A stretch of 64,000 bases of DNA, from assembly GCF_003073475.1 (NCBI RefSeq), contig NZ_CP029033.1, positions 682,001 to 746,000 of the forward strand, written 5' to 3'. A program made the translations under genes and the position numbers. The stretch comes from Actinobaculum sp. 313. GTDB taxonomy: Bacteria > Actinomycetota > Actinomycetes > Actinomycetales > Actinomycetaceae. Each line of letters begins with the position of its first letter. Positions within the stretch are counted from its first letter, which is position 1. Under the pieces are notes generated by a model, which was not told where the DNA came from, did no database searches, and saw only the letters and a program-made list of their open reading frames with translations. Shown here one piece after another: positions 23,281 through 60,163 of the stretch.

Positions 23281-23868
23281 GGCTGCGTGACACGCTTTAG
23301 TGCAGCGTGACTCACGCGGGTAAGCGCAGCACCGGTCGCGAGGCTAAGCGCAGTACCGACCACAAGGCCAAGCGCCGAAGCGGTGTGCCGACAGAGCCAC
23401 GATGACCATTCCCAGCTGACTTTCGGTCAAGTGCTTGGTGTTGCACAGTTTACTAGCGGAGAGTGACGGTGCCTCTGAACTGAGGCCATTACGTCCGGCA
23501 CAAGAGCGGAGGGCAGGTCAAAAGCGATGGTCGCGCAGACTGGTGGGATCGGCTTCGGGCACAGACGCGGATAGTGCGGGAAGTACCCCCGATAGTGGCG
23601 GCTGCCAGACGGGAGGAGCGTGAGGTATAAGGTGCTGGCAGGCGCAGCATTCTGCGCCTGCACGGCGGATTGCGCAGTTGCAGTGCACTTGGGTGGGCGC
23701 CGCGTGGGCAGACCGGCCTCATCGTGGCTACTTGTTCGTATTGCGACCTAATTGCCTGCTTGGCCGTATCGCTGGCTGTGAAATCAGACTGTTGTTGTTC
23801 TGCGGCAGGCAGCCGTCGATAGGGTTTTAACCCCGGTGCGGATGATCAAGGAGAGGGATGGTGAACAA

Positions 23869-25805
23869 GTGAAACGGAAAAGACTGCCCGTGCGTCTCAC
23901 GGCGCTTGTGATGGCGGGAAGCACAGCTTTCGCATTATCCGGGTGTACCGGATCCAGCGATACGGACTCCACCACTACGGCCACGGCGTCGTCGTCGATG
24001 GACTATTCGGCGCTCGGCATTGATGAAACTGCCTGGCAGTATGACGAAGCCAATGATGTCTACTACCAGATCGGTGTCAGCTACGTGCTGACGCCGCAGG
24101 CCGCTGACTATGAGACGCTCGGCATTTACGTGCCCGGTGCCTATATGGACGCCACGGATAACGGAGACGGCACCTATACTGCGAGCATTAGATCAGACGG
24201 TGCAGTCGGCGATTTCACGGCGACGACGGCGCCGATCATTTTCCCGGTGAATACACCGGGCTATGCAGCGCAGAGTGCGCCACTAGAGTACAACTACGAC
24301 AGCATCTCCGAGTATATGGAGGCTGGGTTCATCTACGTATGGCCCGGCCTGCGAGGCCGGGACTCCAACACCGATGACTACACTGGCAATGCTCCGTGGG
24401 GTGTCACCGACCTGAAGGCAGCTGTGCGCTACGTGCGCTACAACAGCGATAGTCTGCCCGGTAACTCGGAAGCTGTGTACGTCTTCGGGCATAGTGGTGG
24501 TGCGCAAAGTGCCGTCATGGGAGCATCCGGCGATTCCGAGCTGTACACTCCCTACCTCAACGAGCTTGGCGCCGCCATGAACGATGCTGATGGAAACGCG
24601 ATCTCCGACGCCGTCGCCGGTGTTATGGCCTGGTGTCCGATCACCAACCTTGATGCAGCGGACGCCGCCTACGAGTGGAACATGGGGCAATTCTCGAATT
24701 CAGGTACGCGGGCCGAAGGTACCTGGACCGCAGCCTATTCCAGCGACTTAGCCGAGGCTTACGCGCAATACATCAACGGACTCGGTCTGACCGACGAAGA
24801 CGGTAATGTGCTCATGCTGGACGAGTCCAACGAAGGCATCTACCTTTCCGGCACGTATTATGACTACCTGGTCTCGACGATTGAGGGATCGCTGAACGAC
24901 TTCTTGGCCGAGACCGAGTTCCCGTACACGCCGTCTAGTAGCGAGATGGCGGGTATGGATGCGGGTGGTCCGCCCTCCGATGGCGAGGATTCGGGGAGTA
25001 TACCCTCTGGCGGCGCCTCTTCTGATGGCGCTTCCTCCGATAGTCCACCTTCCGAAGATCTTCCCGACGACGCCAGCGGCGCCCCGGACGGTTCGAGCAG
25101 TGGGCCGAGCGGCGATGGGGGAGCTCCTAGTGGTGGCGCACCCGGCGGTGGCAACTCAACGGAGGATGCCACCACCTATGAGACGGTGCAAGACTATATT
25201 GATGCGCTGAACGCGGACGGTGAATGGGTGAGTTATGACGCCGATACCAATACCGCGACGGTGACAAGCCTGGAAGGCTTTATCACCAGCCAGAAGAATG
25301 CATCGAAGGATGTCGGCGCTTTTGACGGTGTTGACGCTTCCGCCACCGAGAATGTGGTGATGGGCTCCGGTGCAGATGGTCTGCACTTCGATACCATCGC
25401 CCGTGATCTGATTACTGAAAATGAAGAAGAGTATTCCTCGTACTCCGACTGGAGCGTGGATTACGCGGGGATCAGTATGACTCGGACTTTGAGACAACCG
25501 ACTCGCTCGGCATTGATGTTGCGACACGCATGAATATGTACAACCCGATGTACTACCTGAATAGTAGTTACGACGGGTACCAGAGTTCCGAAGTTGCGCA
25601 GAACTGGCGTATCCGCACCGGCATTGCGCAGGGAGATACCGCAAATGCCACCGAGGTGAATCTGGCGCTCGCGCTGGAGAACTATGGGGTGGAGAACCTG
25701 GACTTCGCGACCATCTGGGGGCAGGGCCACACCATGGCGGAGCTGAATGGAAATGGCACCACGAACTTCATCCAGTGGGTGACTGAGAATGAGACAGGCG
25801 CCTAA
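23869..25805 (+). pseudogene. Tannase-like secreted esterase lipoprotein, frameshifted near 25467
   Basis: Subtype-B tannase-like alpha/beta hydrolase that would hydrolyse galloyl or phenolic esters at the cell surface. GTG 23869 has AAGGAGAGG upstream; signal peptide with lipobox LSGC about 30 residues in. Nucleophile elbow VFGHSGGAQSAVMG, WPGLRGRDSN, and MAWCPITNLDAADAAYEWN match the family. A Ser/Gly/Pro/Asp-rich insertion of about 70 residues interrupts the middle. Frame one ends ...SMTRTLRQPTRSALMLRHA at 25533; the true continuation (DSLGIDVATRMNMYNPMYYL ... WGQGHTMAEL with the catalytic His) is in another frame. Adding one G to the GCGGGG run at 25465-25470 restores it. As written, the Ser is separated from Asp/His, so inactive unless the base is a sequencing error. 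Confidence 0.8.
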
Positions 25806-25835
25806 GAGGTAGGTGCTAGAACTCGTTCATGGCAC

Positions 25836-25874
25836 AATGCGCTGCCCGAGGTGACATGCCCCGGGCAGCGCATT
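25836..25874. terminator. Bidirectional hairpin terminator
   Basis: Thirteen-base perfect stem AATGCGCTGCCCG / CGGGCAGCGCATT with a 13-base loop, 30 bases after the tannase stop and between convergent genes. No long T tract. Confidence 0.75.
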
Positions 25875-26062
25875 GCATCAGCAGCTGTATTGCGGTGGTA
25901 ACGAGCGTAGGGTAGGGAGGGGGAACGGGATACATGCAGCTCCGCGTGGAAACTGGTTTTTGCCGTTCGCGGCGAAGAACCGGGGAGCACGCAAAAGCTC
26001 GGCGGCTTTCGGCGTAGTTACCTCCGTCACTCCTACGGCAAGCGATCTCATTTGTTCCAAGC

Positions 26063-27358
26063 TCACTCCCGTGGCAAGCGGTCGCGCTGCGCGTAGGCCA
26101 TGAAGCCGGTAACAACGACGACGACGATTGCGCCTAGCGCTATCGCAAACACCGTGCCGAAGCCTCCCCAGTGCTCAGCGACATATGGCCAGACAACATT
26201 TCCAGCGGCCCCGCCCAATGTTACTGCGACGGAAATCCGGGCGTAGAACACCGGATAGTTCTTTCCGGCACCGAATATGCGACGAGCAACCATCGGGCAA
26301 AGCACGAGCACTCCGGCAATGAAGAAACCAAAGATAAGGCTGCCGATCGGAAGCAAGATCGTCGAGGGGAACTGCCACACGAAGATGATTCCGAGTGCCC
26401 CGGCACCAGAAAGAACGGCAATGGCACGGCTGACGGATAGGTCGGAGAAGAATCCGAGGCCTATCTTGCCGATGGCGTTGCCTGCCTGCGCCACGGCAGC
26501 AAGCGTCGCGCCTGCGATGAACGCCTTTGTCGCAAGTCCCGAATCAGCCTGTTCATTGATCCAGCTGACATACCTCGGGAAATAGCCGGGGATCTGGCAG
26601 ACGAGGTTGACGAAGAAGCCGAACACGATAACGATCCAGAACACGCTCGAGCGCATGCCGACCGATGGTCTGACGGAGGTGGGTTCTGCGACATTGCCAT
26701 CGCTTGAATTGCGCGCCGCCTCGGCAGTGCCATAAGGCAGAAGGCCGCGTTCGGACGGATTGGAACGCACGCAGATAAGAATCACCGGAATCGTGACAAC
26801 GAAAGTGATGATGGCAAAGACAAGGTAGGCGGTCCGCCATCCGTGCGTGGCAATGATCTTCTGAGCTAATGGCAGGAACAGTACTCCGCCAAGGCCCGTG
26901 AAGGCCGTACAGAAGCCAATAATGACGCCCACATGGGTCTTGAACCAGCGATTGACCAAGGTGGCGGTTGCCATGCCGAGCAGAACGATGTTCGAGAGTC
27001 CTGCGAGGAAACCGCCGACCCAGAACATCCAGGGACCTTGGGAGATGGAGAACAAGGCAAAGATGGTAGCTTCGAGAGTGGCTCCTGCGAGCAGGAGAGG
27101 ACGGATGTCATATCGCGCGATTAGGCTACCCATCAGGGGAGAGAAAATCGCACACGAGATCAGCATGAATGACATCCACACGCTAATACTTGCTATCTCG
27201 ACATTGAACTCGTTGGCAATTGGCTCGTAGAACACAGACGCGGAACTGATGAGAATCGCCGAAGGCACGCCGCACATCGTGCAGCAGGCGATGATGATGG
27301 GGAGATAGCTGGCGAAGCCCTTCTCCGTCAGCTGTTGGTCAGTTGTGGCTTGAGACAT
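26063..27358 (-). CDS. MFS transporter, OxlT/monocarboxylate-like
   Basis: 431-residue 12-helix major facilitator protein. N-terminal ACCTMCGVPSAILISSASVFYEP and the SVWMSFMLISCAIFSPLMGSLIARYDIRPLL stretch resemble the OFA/monocarboxylate branch, which carries small organic acids such as oxalate, formate or aromatic acids. ATG 27358 has AAGGAAGTAATC. It lies 91 bases downstream of the esterase gene on the same strand, so the two are probably one transcript, and it converges on the tannase-like gene. Uptake or export of a phenolic acid released by the esterases is an attractive but unproven role. Confidence 0.8.
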   Translation of the reverse strand: MSQATTDQQLTEKGFASYLPIIIACCTMCGVPSAILISSASVFYEPIANEFNVEIASISVWMSFMLISCAIFSPLMGSLIARYDIRPLLLAGATLEATIFALFSISQGPWMFWVGGFLAGLSNIVLLGMATATLVNRWFKTHVGVIIGFCTAFTGLGGVLFLPLAQKIIATHGWRTAYLVFAIITFVVTIPVILICVRSNPSERGLLPYGTAEAARNSSDGNVAEPTSVRPSVGMRSSVFWIVIVFGFFVNLVCQIPGYFPRYVSWINEQADSGLATKAFIAGATLAAVAQAGNAIGKIGLGFFSDLSVSRAIAVLSGAGALGIIFVWQFPSTILLPIGSLIFGFFIAGVLVLCPMVARRIFGAGKNYPVFYARISVAVTLGGAAGNVVWPYVAEHWGGFGTVFAIALGAIVVVVVTGFMAYAQRDRLPRE

Positions 27359-27449
27359 GATTACTTCCTTGGATCACGTGGAATGTGGAGGGACATGGGG
27401 ATATGTAGTGTGGGGTGTGCGCCGTATGTCGTGCGTGGTCATAGCAGGC

Positions 27450-28409
27450 TCAGTCCTCGATCAAACGTGGGTCGGGTGGTAGAGGAGTGCGGGTGCGCGG
27501 TCCGTCCCATAGAACTGTGTCGATGAAGTCGATGATCCGATCCACGACCTTGTCGGTCTTCATTGAGGGATGTCCGTGCCCAGCGCCGCTGAACGATTCC
27601 AGCTTTGCACGTTTTTCGTGGCAGGTTTCGTTGACCTTGTTGGTCATAGCGGCCGATTGCGAAAACGGTACGACGACGTCCTCGGTTCCGTGCATGAAAT
27701 ATGCCGGTGGGAAGCTCTCTGTTACGAAGTGAATGGGGCTGCCATATGCTGCGGCTTCGGGGTTTCGCGAGCATTTGAATCCCATGACGAGGTTATGTGG
27801 GAAAGCCATGCCTTCGGCGGCGATATCGACTGCGCTGAGTGCTGATCCGGGAGTCACATCGGCGACGGCGGATTCCGGCAGTACGTTGCACAGGTCCACC
27901 TGGTACATGTCACTGGGCGCATAGAGGTTAATGAGACCTTGGACTGCGTCGGATTGTTCTGCGTTTCCAAGGTGCTCGCCGCGCTGGATATTGCGCCCGC
28001 CCAGTGCAGCTACCATGTTGAGGATATGACCACCAGCGGAGTTCCCCCAGGCGACGATTTTGTCGGTCTTGAGCTGGTACTCGGGCCCGTGCGCACGTAA
28101 CCAACGGATGGCGGCGCGCACGTCGAACAGTGGCGCGGGCCAGGTGACCTGCGGCGCCAGCCGATACTCGATGCAGGCGACGGCGTAGCCCTGGGAAGGG
28201 AGCTTGAACACGCCGGGCATTGTGTTCTCGCGTTTATCGCCGCTGACCCAGCCACCGCCGTGCACGAAGATGACGAGAGGGAAGGGGCCCTCGCCGTCGT
28301 CGGGGAGCCAGATGTCGAGTACTTGGCGTGGGTCCTCACTGGCATATGGCACGTCGAGCCAGTGTCGGGAGAATTGCGCGGGATCAATCTGACGGAATGG
28401 CCCTGCCAT
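27450..28409 (-). CDS. BD-FAE-like carboxylesterase
   Basis: 319-residue alpha/beta hydrolase of the BD-FAE/HSL-like group. Oxyanion motif IFVHGGGWVSGDKR, nucleophile WGNSAGGHILN, acid in MHGTEDVVVPFSQ, and His in FSGAGHGHPSM make a complete Ser-Asp-His set. No signal peptide, so intracellular. ATG 28409 follows AAAGGACAACA; an in-frame ATG 24 bases upstream is possible. Members act on feruloyl, acetyl or other small esters. Next to an MFS permease and a tannase-like gene. Confidence 0.82.
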   Translation of the reverse strand: MAGPFRQIDPAQFSRHWLDVPYASEDPRQVLDIWLPDDGEGPFPLVIFVHGGGWVSGDKRENTMPGVFKLPSQGYAVACIEYRLAPQVTWPAPLFDVRAAIRWLRAHGPEYQLKTDKIVAWGNSAGGHILNMVAALGGRNIQRGEHLGNAEQSDAVQGLINLYAPSDMYQVDLCNVLPESAVADVTPGSALSAVDIAAEGMAFPHNLVMGFKCSRNPEAAAYGSPIHFVTESFPPAYFMHGTEDVVVPFSQSAAMTNKVNETCHEKRAKLESFSGAGHGHPSMKTDKVVDRIIDFIDTVLWDGPRTRTPLPPDPRLIED

Positions 28410-29075
28410 TGTTGTCCTTTCATTCGGCGTCATTGTCGGTTGCTCCAACCATACGTGCTAGTAAAGGGTAATTCTAGGCTTAACGAACTAGATACTACAG
28501 TGCTGGAAGTGAGGTATGTCACTGCGCAAGAGGTAGGACATGCCGTTCGTAGCCGGAGGGTTATGCGCGGGCGGAGAGTAGTGCGGGCTGGCAGGGCGTT
28601 GCGAGTTGGGCGCCTGGTTGCAAGTGGAAGCATGGGTGCGAAAACGGGAGTGTTACACGAGGGAGACTAGTTCAGGACTGGGAGGGCGTTGTGAGTGTCG
28701 AGAATGGTTATGAGCTGGCGGGGCGTGGTGGAGGTGGGGACGTGGCGTGAATGTGGAGAGTGGTTATGGGCTGGCAGTGATCGGTCAGTGCGTGGTGGAA
28801 TTAGAAGGGTGGCGCGGAGTTTGGGGTGTGTTGGGGCTGGGAGAGTGGTGCGGACCTGTGAGGCTACTGCGTGTTGGGAGTGTGGTTGAAGGCGGGAGCG
28901 AGTGGCGAGTTGGCGGAGCGACGTCGTCGGGACGGACGACCGGTTCGAGTTAGAGGCACAATCTGTGGCACAGCGGGGTAATTGCGGTCGATAACGGGTG
29001 TATGAAAATGCTCGGAATACCAAGGGAAAGGCATTACGGTAAGGCTCGGAATACTAAGGGGTGCTCGATGACTGA
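28410..29075. other. Gene-free G-rich stretch
   Basis: No gene. 28540-28930 is strongly G-rich on the plus strand with imperfect repeats, such as GAATGGTTATGAGCTGGC near 28702 and GAGTGGTTATGGGCTGGC near 28757. Confidence 0.5.
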
Positions 29076-53693: not shown

Positions 53694-53870
53694 AGGACCT
53701 ACTTTCGGAGGTGACATGTACACGGGATGTGTGCTGAGACTAGCACGGGTACGGCGCTAAAGGCACCGCGGTTGAAACGGTCGTGCAGAGAGCCTCTGTT
53801 TGTGCGTGATGTTGCCGTGCGGGCGGTGGTGTATCGTTCGCGCGTGACGCTGCCATGCGTGACGGCAACA

Positions 53871-55172
53871 CTATTGGCTTCCAGGCACCGCCGTGGAGAT
53901 GACCTGAGCGGCAGCGCTTGCCACACGTCGTAAGCCGGAGGTGTCCAGTAAGTAGCTGGTCAACGGGAAGAGCCATCACTTCCGGCCACACGTGCGGGAA
54001 ACTGCTGGGGCATGGCCAATACATCGGAGTGTATATATGTTCCTGTGCGAGGCGCTGTGCCGCTTGTTCGGCGTGCGGCATCTGAAGGGCAACGGTGTAG
54101 GCGCTGGCCGCGATGATGGCTTGGGCGGGGATGCTTGCGGCGCGCAGGTAATGAACAAGCATTGCGGCATGCCGGCGGCGTCGACTCATAATCTTGGCGA
54201 TGTCCAGCGCGGCAAGTAGGTGCCGGGCCGCAGTGCTCATGGAGGTTGGGTCCCGGGCCGCGTCAACGGCTTCTTCGGCTTGCGGAGTGGGGGTACCGCG
54301 TAGTCCGGCGAGCTTCAGCGTGGTGACGCGATCATCTGGTGCAGGCGGAGTCGGCGCGGGCAGGGCAGTGGCGCCCCGGGCGGCATGGGCCCAGGCGCCG
54401 TCGGGAATCGGCAACCATTTGCGGAGGGAGAGAACACTGTAGGTGGCATAGTCTGGCGGCGGGGTGTCCGGCCCGGCATGAGTGATATCGGCGACGATGG
54501 CGCGGCCTCGTTCGGCCTGCGCGTTCAGGAGTGTTGCGAGTGCGGGGACGGGGTATCACCGCAGGTTGTGCCGAATAGAATCGCAGCGCCCGGGGTGCGT
54601 TCGGTTGCTCTATCGAGTGCGGCTGGATCCGGTAGTAGATCGGTGCCGACGGGCACGTGCTGGATGCTGATGCCTTCGAGTTGGAAGGGCTCGATCATGG
54701 TGAGGCAGTAGTACGCGGGTACCAAGATGCGGTTGATTCCACGGTCTCGCAGCGCTCTGGCGACGAGACTGAGCGCTTGTCGGCCGGAGGCGACGGCGCG
54801 TGTCGGCCACACGGGTGGTTGAGCGATGCCTGCTTCATTGGAAGAGGGGGTACGCGGCGGAGGTGCGGCGCCTGGTGAGGTGCGAACGTTGGGGCGGACT
54901 GCGGTGTGACTGTGAAATGTTCCAGGTGCGGGTGGGTTGATGGCGGGTGGGGTGGTGTGTGAGGGAGGTGCTGCGGGTGGGGTAGCGGCAACACCGAAGG
55001 GATTTGGGTCCTTGCGCGCTGGGGTAGGGCCTACGTCGGTTAAAGGTGTGGCGGGGGTTGATGCCGCGATAGTAGCGCTGCACAGGGAAGCGGTTGGTGG
55101 TATGTAGTGCCCGGGGAGGAAGTCCTCGCGGGGTGCCCAGGTAAAATCGCCGCCAATTTCCGCATTTGCCAT
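53871..55172 (-). pseudogene. PLP-dependent aminotransferase-like protein with two frameshifts
   Basis: Gene for a DegT/DnrJ-like PLP protein, as used in cell-wall or capsular sugar biosynthesis, broken twice. Segment 1 (from ATG 55172, leaderless with TAAGTT seven bases upstream) runs from MANAEIGGDFTW to FGTTCGDTP. One missing base in the G run at 54550-54553 shifts the frame; restoring it gives VPALATLLNAQAERGRAIVA and YSVLSLRKWLPIPDGAWA with the PLP lysine. Near 53937 one extra base shifts it again, and the natural end LRRVASAAAQVISTAVPGSQ stops at TAG 53871. A Pro/Thr-rich low-complexity insertion (about 85 residues) sits near the N-terminus. Real decay or sequencing error. Confidence 0.7.
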
Positions 55173-55518
55173 TATGGCCAACTTACGAGTATCTGCACCT
55201 GATAGCGGTCGGGGTGGAACCTAGTGGCACGTCAGGCGGAGGTGTCGATGTGTATGGGGAGTTGGTGCGGGCTGGTGTGAACCCAGCAACCAACAGGGGA
55301 GGTGTTGATGCGTACGGGGAGCTGGAAAAGCCGCTCGGTGAGGGACGTAAACTTGTCGGCGCGAGTGAAAATCTGTTGGTGAGGAGGCGAGGTGCGGCGC
55401 GCTTTGCGAATACGCACTTATCGGGTGTGGGCGGACCTCTGTTGGCGATTTGGATGTGTCGTGTGTAGTGGCCAAAGACACCATAATGCGGAGCTTGGTG
55501 TGCCTCCGCAAAGGGGCG

Positions 55519-58920: not shown

Positions 58921-59795
58921 CGCACCTCTCCAGGAACTTGTGCCGAGTTGGCGTCCGTGACGTGCCGCAGTCCAGAGCGTGTGGCCAGAATGAGGAGAAC
59001 CGGCTCGATGGCCAGGGAGGCGGCACTGGCGCCAAGGACCCAAAGTGGATGGATGCGTCCATCACGTGACTTCAGCGCAAATAGCGCCGAGCTGAGCAGT
59101 GAGGCGTTCAGCAGACTCCCCATAGATCCGCGGATTAGTGCATCGCGGATATCATCCCCCTCGCGGGCCGCCCAGATGGCGGTGCCGAAATTCGCTGCGC
59201 CGAGAAGGGCCGTGCCGAGTGTTGGATCAATGGTGCCACGAACCTTCCCCGTCAGAGAGATGTTCAGCGGGAGCCGCTTGCCTCGTCGTCGTGCGGTCAG
59301 TGTTGCGGCAACGGTTCCGGCTGCCAGCACGCTCGGGAAGAAGCGCACGATGCGGCGCATGTACTCGGGGATGGCTGCTAGGACCTCGTCGTCGACGTCG
59401 TCGGGGCGGAGCAGGCCAAGTTTCACGGCGACCGCGCCCATGTTCAGGTCAGCTCCGGCGCCGAACACTCGCTTGACGAACAGTCGTGGGGAGCTGGGAT
59501 CCCACAGCCGGGCGCGCGCGTCGGCGTCGAACAGGCCGGAGAAGTTTAAATCGAGGTTCGGGTTTGCGCCGCTGCCTTCGTCGTCGGGATCAGCCTCTGC
59601 CCCGGGAGCGGCGACGGCGGCAAGTTGTTCGGCGAGCCGTGCGGGGGCACCTAGTGATTCAGGGGTGGTGCCGTCGCTCAGGAGCGATTCGATCTCGCGC
59701 AGGATGTCGGTGCGGCGCGGTTCCTCGATGCGCCGTTGTGTCAGCTCGTGATCGAGCTCTTGTAGGTACAACTGTCCGTTGAGGTTGTCAGGCAT
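58917..59795 (-). CDS. HAAS-domain membrane protein
   Basis: 292-residue protein. The N-terminal ~65 residues (MPDNLNGQLYLQELDHELTQ, RRIEEPRRTDILREIESLL) are the HAAS (DUF1700-like) helical domain that accompanies PadR regulators. The rest is a soluble-to-membrane region with several weak hydrophobic segments (IPEYMRRIVRFFPSVLAAGTVAATL, TALLGAANFGTAIWAA, NASLLSSALFALK, LWVLGASAASLAIEPVLLIL). ATG 59795 has GGAGGTATCG. It overlaps the PadR stop by eight bases. PadR-HAAS pairs usually sense and control a membrane system; here the next gene is PLDc_N and then the ABC exporter. Confidence 0.78.
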   Translation of the reverse strand: MPDNLNGQLYLQELDHELTQRRIEEPRRTDILREIESLLSDGTTPESLGAPARLAEQLAAVAAPGAEADPDDEGSGANPNLDLNFSGLFDADARARLWDPSSPRLFVKRVFGAGADLNMGAVAVKLGLLRPDDVDDEVLAAIPEYMRRIVRFFPSVLAAGTVAATLTARRRGKRLPLNISLTGKVRGTIDPTLGTALLGAANFGTAIWAAREGDDIRDALIRGSMGSLLNASLLSSALFALKSRDGRIHPLWVLGASAASLAIEPVLLILATRSGLRHVTDANSAQVPGEVR

Positions 59796-60128
59796 CGATA
59801 CCTCCGAGTAAAGCGTTTAAGGCGGATGACATCGCCGTCCAAGCGGTGTGTTGGGCGGCGAGAGCATCGCGGCCGGTGGCGGTTAGTTGGTAGTACTTGC
59901 GCGGTGGTCCGACGGGGGACTCCTGCCATTTCGTGGCGAGAAGTCCGGCTTTGGCCAGCCGGGTCAGGATGGGGTAGACGGTTCCGGCCCCCGAGTCGAG
60001 CCCGGGTGGGCCGCCAATGCGGCGACGATTTGCCCGCCATAGGTGGGTTCTTTGTCCAGCAGGGCAAGGATTGCAAGTTCAAGCACGCCTTTGCGTAGCT
60101 GTGTGGCTTGCGTTGTTTGGCCTGCCAT
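59788..60128 (-). pseudogene. PadR-family regulator, frameshifted
   Basis: Winged-helix repressor of the PadR group. ATG 60128 has AGAGAGGAGGAACG. MAGQTTQATQLRKGVLELAI and LALLDKEPTYGGQIVAALAAHPG are in frame one, after which it reads GSTRGPEPSTPS and stops. One base restored at about 60001-60006 gives LDSGAGTVYPILTRLAKAGLLATKWQESP, then VGPPRKYYQLTATGRDALAA and the natural end ALNALLGGIDA at TGA 59788-59790. The 341-bp span is one short of a multiple of three, as expected for a one-base loss. Intact, it would be a 113-residue autoregulator of the operon; the break may be a sequencing error. Confidence 0.8.
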
Positions 60129-60163
60129 CGTTCCTCCTCTCTTGCACGTGGTCAGTGTTCGTG

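Follow-up and report, generated by a model that had tools for sequence, protein, structure and literature searches.

A frame-broken subtype A tannase gene beside an MFS carrier and a BD-FAE-type esterase in Actinobaculum sp. 313

The window analysed here, a stretch of 64,000 nucleotides from Actinobaculum sp. 313, carries what is, judging from its sequence, an ordinary bacterial tannase of subtype A, present as a frame-broken copy within a known family. We consider it probable that this gene represents a single-enzyme trait for tannin detoxification or scavenging, broken here or seemingly so, which lies beside a separate gene pair encoding an MFS carrier and an esterase. The intact enzyme is predicted to be a surface lipoprotein that would hydrolyse galloyl esters of tannins outside the cell, in a role of detoxification or glucose scavenging for which gallate catabolism would not be needed. 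In strain 313 this enzyme would be inactivated by one frame break, or only apparently so through an assembly error. The carrier and the cytosolic esterase would form a unit of their own, in which uptake is followed by hydrolysis of another small ester or carboxylate. The features discussed are the following (window positions).

23869 to 25467, plus strand: subtype A tannase, frame 1, with LSGC including Cys26, the GHSGG elbow with Ser209, an insert, Lys480 and Glu494
25465 to 25470, plus strand: frame break, a short G run at the junction of the two frames
25470 to 25805, plus strand: subtype A tannase, frame 2, with the WRIRTG-Q-G-D motif and the catalytic His in GQGHT
25835 to 25875, no strand assigned: strong GC-rich hairpin in the gap where the tannase and MFS genes converge
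26063 to 27358, minus strand: MFS carrier, 94.5 bits to Pfam MFS_1 and under all NCBIfam cut-offs
27450 to 28409, minus strand: BD-FAE/HSL-type alpha/beta esterase with the HGGGW oxyanion motif and a GNSAGG elbow
23840 to 27370, no strand assigned: tract of low divergence from the sister species, covering the tannase and the MFS gene and leaving the esterase outside

The tannase and its conserved residues

The open reading frames and their translations place the tannase at 23869-25805 on the plus strand, split over two frames that meet near 25465-25470. The first ORF runs from 23836 or 23869 to 25533 (plus strand) and the continuation in the other frame to 25805 on the same strand. Each piece was recognised independently of the other by NF041555, the NCBIfam model of subtype A tannases: the first matched model positions 9-513 with 681 bits and passes the curated cut-off of 550 bits alone, and the second matched positions 515-619 with 160 bits, consecutive with the first. 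The profile matches of the tannase, MFS and esterase genes are all well beyond chance level. A lipobox, LSGC, is found among the first 30 residues, and together with the 681-bit match it bears out the description of a tannase-like lipoprotein in the earlier note. The relatives with solved structures are bacterial tannases (6yq4, 7q6y, 4j0g and 3wa6). The fungal-type tannase family PF07519 was also tried and discarded, as it gave no matches in this genome but none in the control genomes either; bacterial tannases form a family distinct from PF07519.

For residue conservation, 75 intact homologues were aligned. All 75 keep the nucleophile Ser209, in the G-X-S elbow GHSGG, and 73 of them keep the catalytic His of GQGHT. 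The gallate contacts of TanLp, Lys343, Glu357 and Asp421, correspond in the window tannase to Lys480, Glu494 and the Asp of QGD, which are conserved in 75, 75 and 74 of the 75 homologues, respectively. The position of TanLp Asp419 is taken by Gln, both in the window tannase and in all 74 homologues with a residue there. This replacement was considered as an unusual feature and rejected as such: Gln at this position is a published signature that defines subtype A (PMC4218992, PMC8958541), and it is therefore not a defect.

Among characterised enzymes, the closest comparison is with the subtype A tannases TanASg of S. gallolyticus, TanA of S. lugdunensis, TanALp of L. plantarum and CbTan1 of C. 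butyricum, the family as a whole being that of NF041555. These have in common about 600-690 amino acids with a signal peptide, the GXSGG elbow, Gln in place of Asp419, the Lys/Glu/Asp gallate contacts and the catalytic His. Unlike them, the window copy is broken in frame, is a lipoprotein by its signal and has an insert of 84 residues (at approximately 357-434) rich in Gly, Ser, Pro and Asp; such a Gly/Ser/Pro-rich insert is a variable-length trait across the subtype A family, ranging from 0 to more than 140 residues. The signal peptide is thus present as a lipoprotein signal, whereas a single open frame of about 600 amino acids is not. With the subtype B enzyme TanLp (PDB 4j0g/3wa6) the window tannase shares the fold family (99 bits by sequence) and the conserved gallate contacts, but TanLp has the triad Ser163-Asp419-His451 where the window tannase has Gln at the Asp419 position. 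Against the subtype B model NF041556 it scored 204 bits, under the cut-off of 300.

The frame break

Relatives of the tannase were collected at 80 loci in named genomes, and at 75 of these a single open frame spans both parts; compared with its family, the window copy is thus broken in frame. In the sister genome, a metagenome-assembled genome of the same genus ('Actinomycetaceae bacterium SIG35'), the gene is intact through both parts and 95% identical. The break described in the earlier note is thus confirmed, with two frames meeting near 25465-25470 opposite an intact sister copy. Compared with the sister, the first piece has a dN/dS ratio of 0.12 and the second one of 0.06; selection has been purifying on both sides of the break, which is therefore either recent or artefactual, with no sign of long decay.

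In our view it is nearly as probable as not that the organism itself has an unbroken tannase and that the break arose during assembly, at a short G run. The lesion is single, it is flanked on both sides by sequence under purifying selection, and the sister copy is intact; in addition, at least two more window genes are discrepant in frame relative to the sister, and all these sites are near short runs of G or C, the pattern expected of residual indels from long reads. On the other hand, about 30 other window genes that were compared show no frame discrepancy with the sister, and a tannase gene of another Actinomycetaceae genome is also split between frames, so that natural loss of the tannase may occur. 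On balance, true recent loss and assembly error appear about equally likely.

The additional discrepancies lie near 54.5 and 60.0 kb, in genes at 53870-55181 (without Pfam matches) and 59790-60140, which may be decaying rapidly near an ABC transporter or else carry residual assembly indels. The second split tannase is located at G465:C1:1925193-1927081, and loss or truncation of the tannase may recur in Actinomycetaceae.

Neighbouring genes and gallate catabolism

The earlier note had proposed a phenolic-ester locus, and the three genes do lie within 4.6 kb as it reported (ORF list). In such a locus the surface tannase would free gallate, the MFS carrier would import either this gallate or some smaller ester, and hydrolysis of hydroxycinnamoyl or galloyl esters would be completed by the esterase in the cytosol. 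The spacing of the genes and their retention in the sister species speak for this arrangement, as do the low-divergence tract common to tannase and MFS gene and the fact that some BD-FAE members can act as feruloyl esterases (PMC8165983). We nevertheless judge it improbable, on evidence from gene neighbourhoods, gene orientation, carrier relationships and gene content.

Neighbourhoods were examined at 79 other subtype A tannase loci, over at most 10 kb per side and over shorter distances at some contig ends. Even at an E value of 1e-3, none of the 79 had a relative of the MFS carrier nearby, nor was a close relative of the esterase present within 10 kb; just two weak generic hydrolase matches were obtained, both in Streptomyces. 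Among the genomes compared, the sister species, which keeps tannase, MFS carrier and esterase, is the sole one with such neighbours; since it also keeps the flanking genes on both sides (FemX-like, BrnQ, methyltransferase, amino-acid permease and G6PD), the co-retention is plain synteny. The usual neighbours of other tannase genes, named by eye, are lineage-specific (fumarase-like, DnaJ, ABC transporter, membrane transporter), and no pathway was seen among them. The TanA genes of L. plantarum and S. gallolyticus are also located apart from other tannin genes (PMC4218992).

Within the window, the tannase (plus strand) is convergent with the co-directional MFS-esterase pair (minus strand), and the strong hairpin at 25835-25875 lies between them. 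Its 101-nt fold has a free energy of -46.8 kcal/mol (z -3.4); it is without a T tract and was not called by a scan for T-tract terminators, and it likely marks a transcript end. A gallate decarboxylase elsewhere in the genome was looked for and not found: the UbiD family (PF01977) had no match, while being present in 9 of 14 control genomes. LigB-type ring-opening dioxygenases and phenolic acid decarboxylases (PA_decarbox) were likewise absent from the genome, with matches in the control genomes. Because no gene of these three families is encoded, the released gallate would have no recognised catabolic route, although it could be metabolised by another route or simply exported, which would count against the single-enzyme reading. 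Taken together, the missing co-occurrence beyond one syntenic sister, the convergent genes with a hairpin between them and the lack of these catabolic families, along with the esterase lying outside the low-divergence tract (dS 0.99) and the distance of the carrier from the aromatic-acid symporter family (20.7 versus 418 bits), largely refute the locus, also by the criterion that the earlier note had set for it, and this tempting pathway reading can now be set aside as unsupported.

The esterase ORF opens at 28448 (minus strand), and the first ATG of the conserved part is at 28409. It matches the whole Pfam BD-FAE domain (PF20434) with 170.3 bits against a gathering cut-off of 26.8, so that its earlier description as BD-FAE-like stands, and its PDB relatives are 6nkf, 6tkx and 6xyc. 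Although it shares a full-domain match with the feruloyl/acetyl-xylan esterases of this family, it differs from them in having neither a signal peptide nor a surrounding carbohydrate locus. Its sequence points to a cytosolic BD-FAE-type esterase; PF20434 is broad, so feruloyl or acetyl-xylan activity is only putative.

For the carrier, the proposal of an OFA-like MFS permease holds in part. The protein does belong to MFS_1 (94.5 bits), but the likeness to OFA is weak, with 62.4 of 374.9 bits for TIGR00890 and 43.3 of 335 for TIGR04259. Models of bile-salt and lactate carriers scored better than OFA, yet far under their cut-offs; OFA, lactate and conjugated bile-salt carriers are the best-scoring specific MFS models, matched over the full length, and with 62-94 bits against cut-offs of 320-400 the protein falls outside all of them. 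The score against the aromatic-acid symporter family is lower still. We thus regard the protein as a putative carrier only distantly related to carboxylate, bile-salt and OFA-type carriers. Its nearest relatives beyond the genus are 35% identical and come from other families of the phylum. At loci L127-L132, in genomes of one family (f77), relatives of the carrier (31-35%) are found near apparent genes for a CaiB-type CoA-transferase, acyl-CoA dehydrogenase, ETF and LysR, and one orthologous HSL-type hydrolase is also close by; these neighbours suggest a carboxylate or acyl substrate for the clade. Conservation of the MFS-esterase pairing in these distant genomes, from weak hydrolase matches 5-25 kb from the MFS relatives, was considered and rejected. 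The hydrolases, located by eye in apparent CoA-transferase/acyl-CoA dehydrogenase/ETF clusters, are one orthologous and different HSL-type group, and they are therefore not independent support.

The low-divergence tract and the distribution of the tannase

For most of its length the tract is about 90-95% identical in DNA to the sister, the exceptions being 25.8-26.4 kb, at 84-88%, and 26.4-26.8 kb, at 98-100%. Immediately outside, identity drops sharply, to 46% on the upstream side and 78% on the downstream side. The tannase has a dS of 0.25 and the MFS gene one of 0.30, whereas dS is 0.99 in the esterase and ranges from 0.57 to 1.76 in other flanking genes. No island was seen in base composition, with a GC content of 57-64% throughout. 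The tract likely reflects homologous exchange between lineages that covered the tannase and MFS genes, and it hints, weakly, that these two travel together without the esterase. Genes that share such a tract could also work together, which again would count against the single-enzyme reading. We think it unlikely, however, that the tract is a small functional unit swapped among related Actinomycetaceae by homologous recombination, with the MFS protein as an uncharacterised gallate or galloyl-ester carrier (for import or export) paired with the surface tannase; were it so, a candidate gallate carrier would be gained, on a thin case. A further patch of low dS at 53-54 kb indicates local heterogeneity elsewhere in the window too.

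The literature searched bears out the earlier remark that members of this family have received little description in Actinomycetaceae, as it contained no tannase paper on that group, but the gene itself is common in one other genus. Subtype A tannase is here documented in 28 of 213 Actinomycetaceae genomes and in two of 36 genera, namely that of the window and Actinomyces (the latter judged from named records). It also occurs in Streptomyces, Coriobacteria and Firmicutes.
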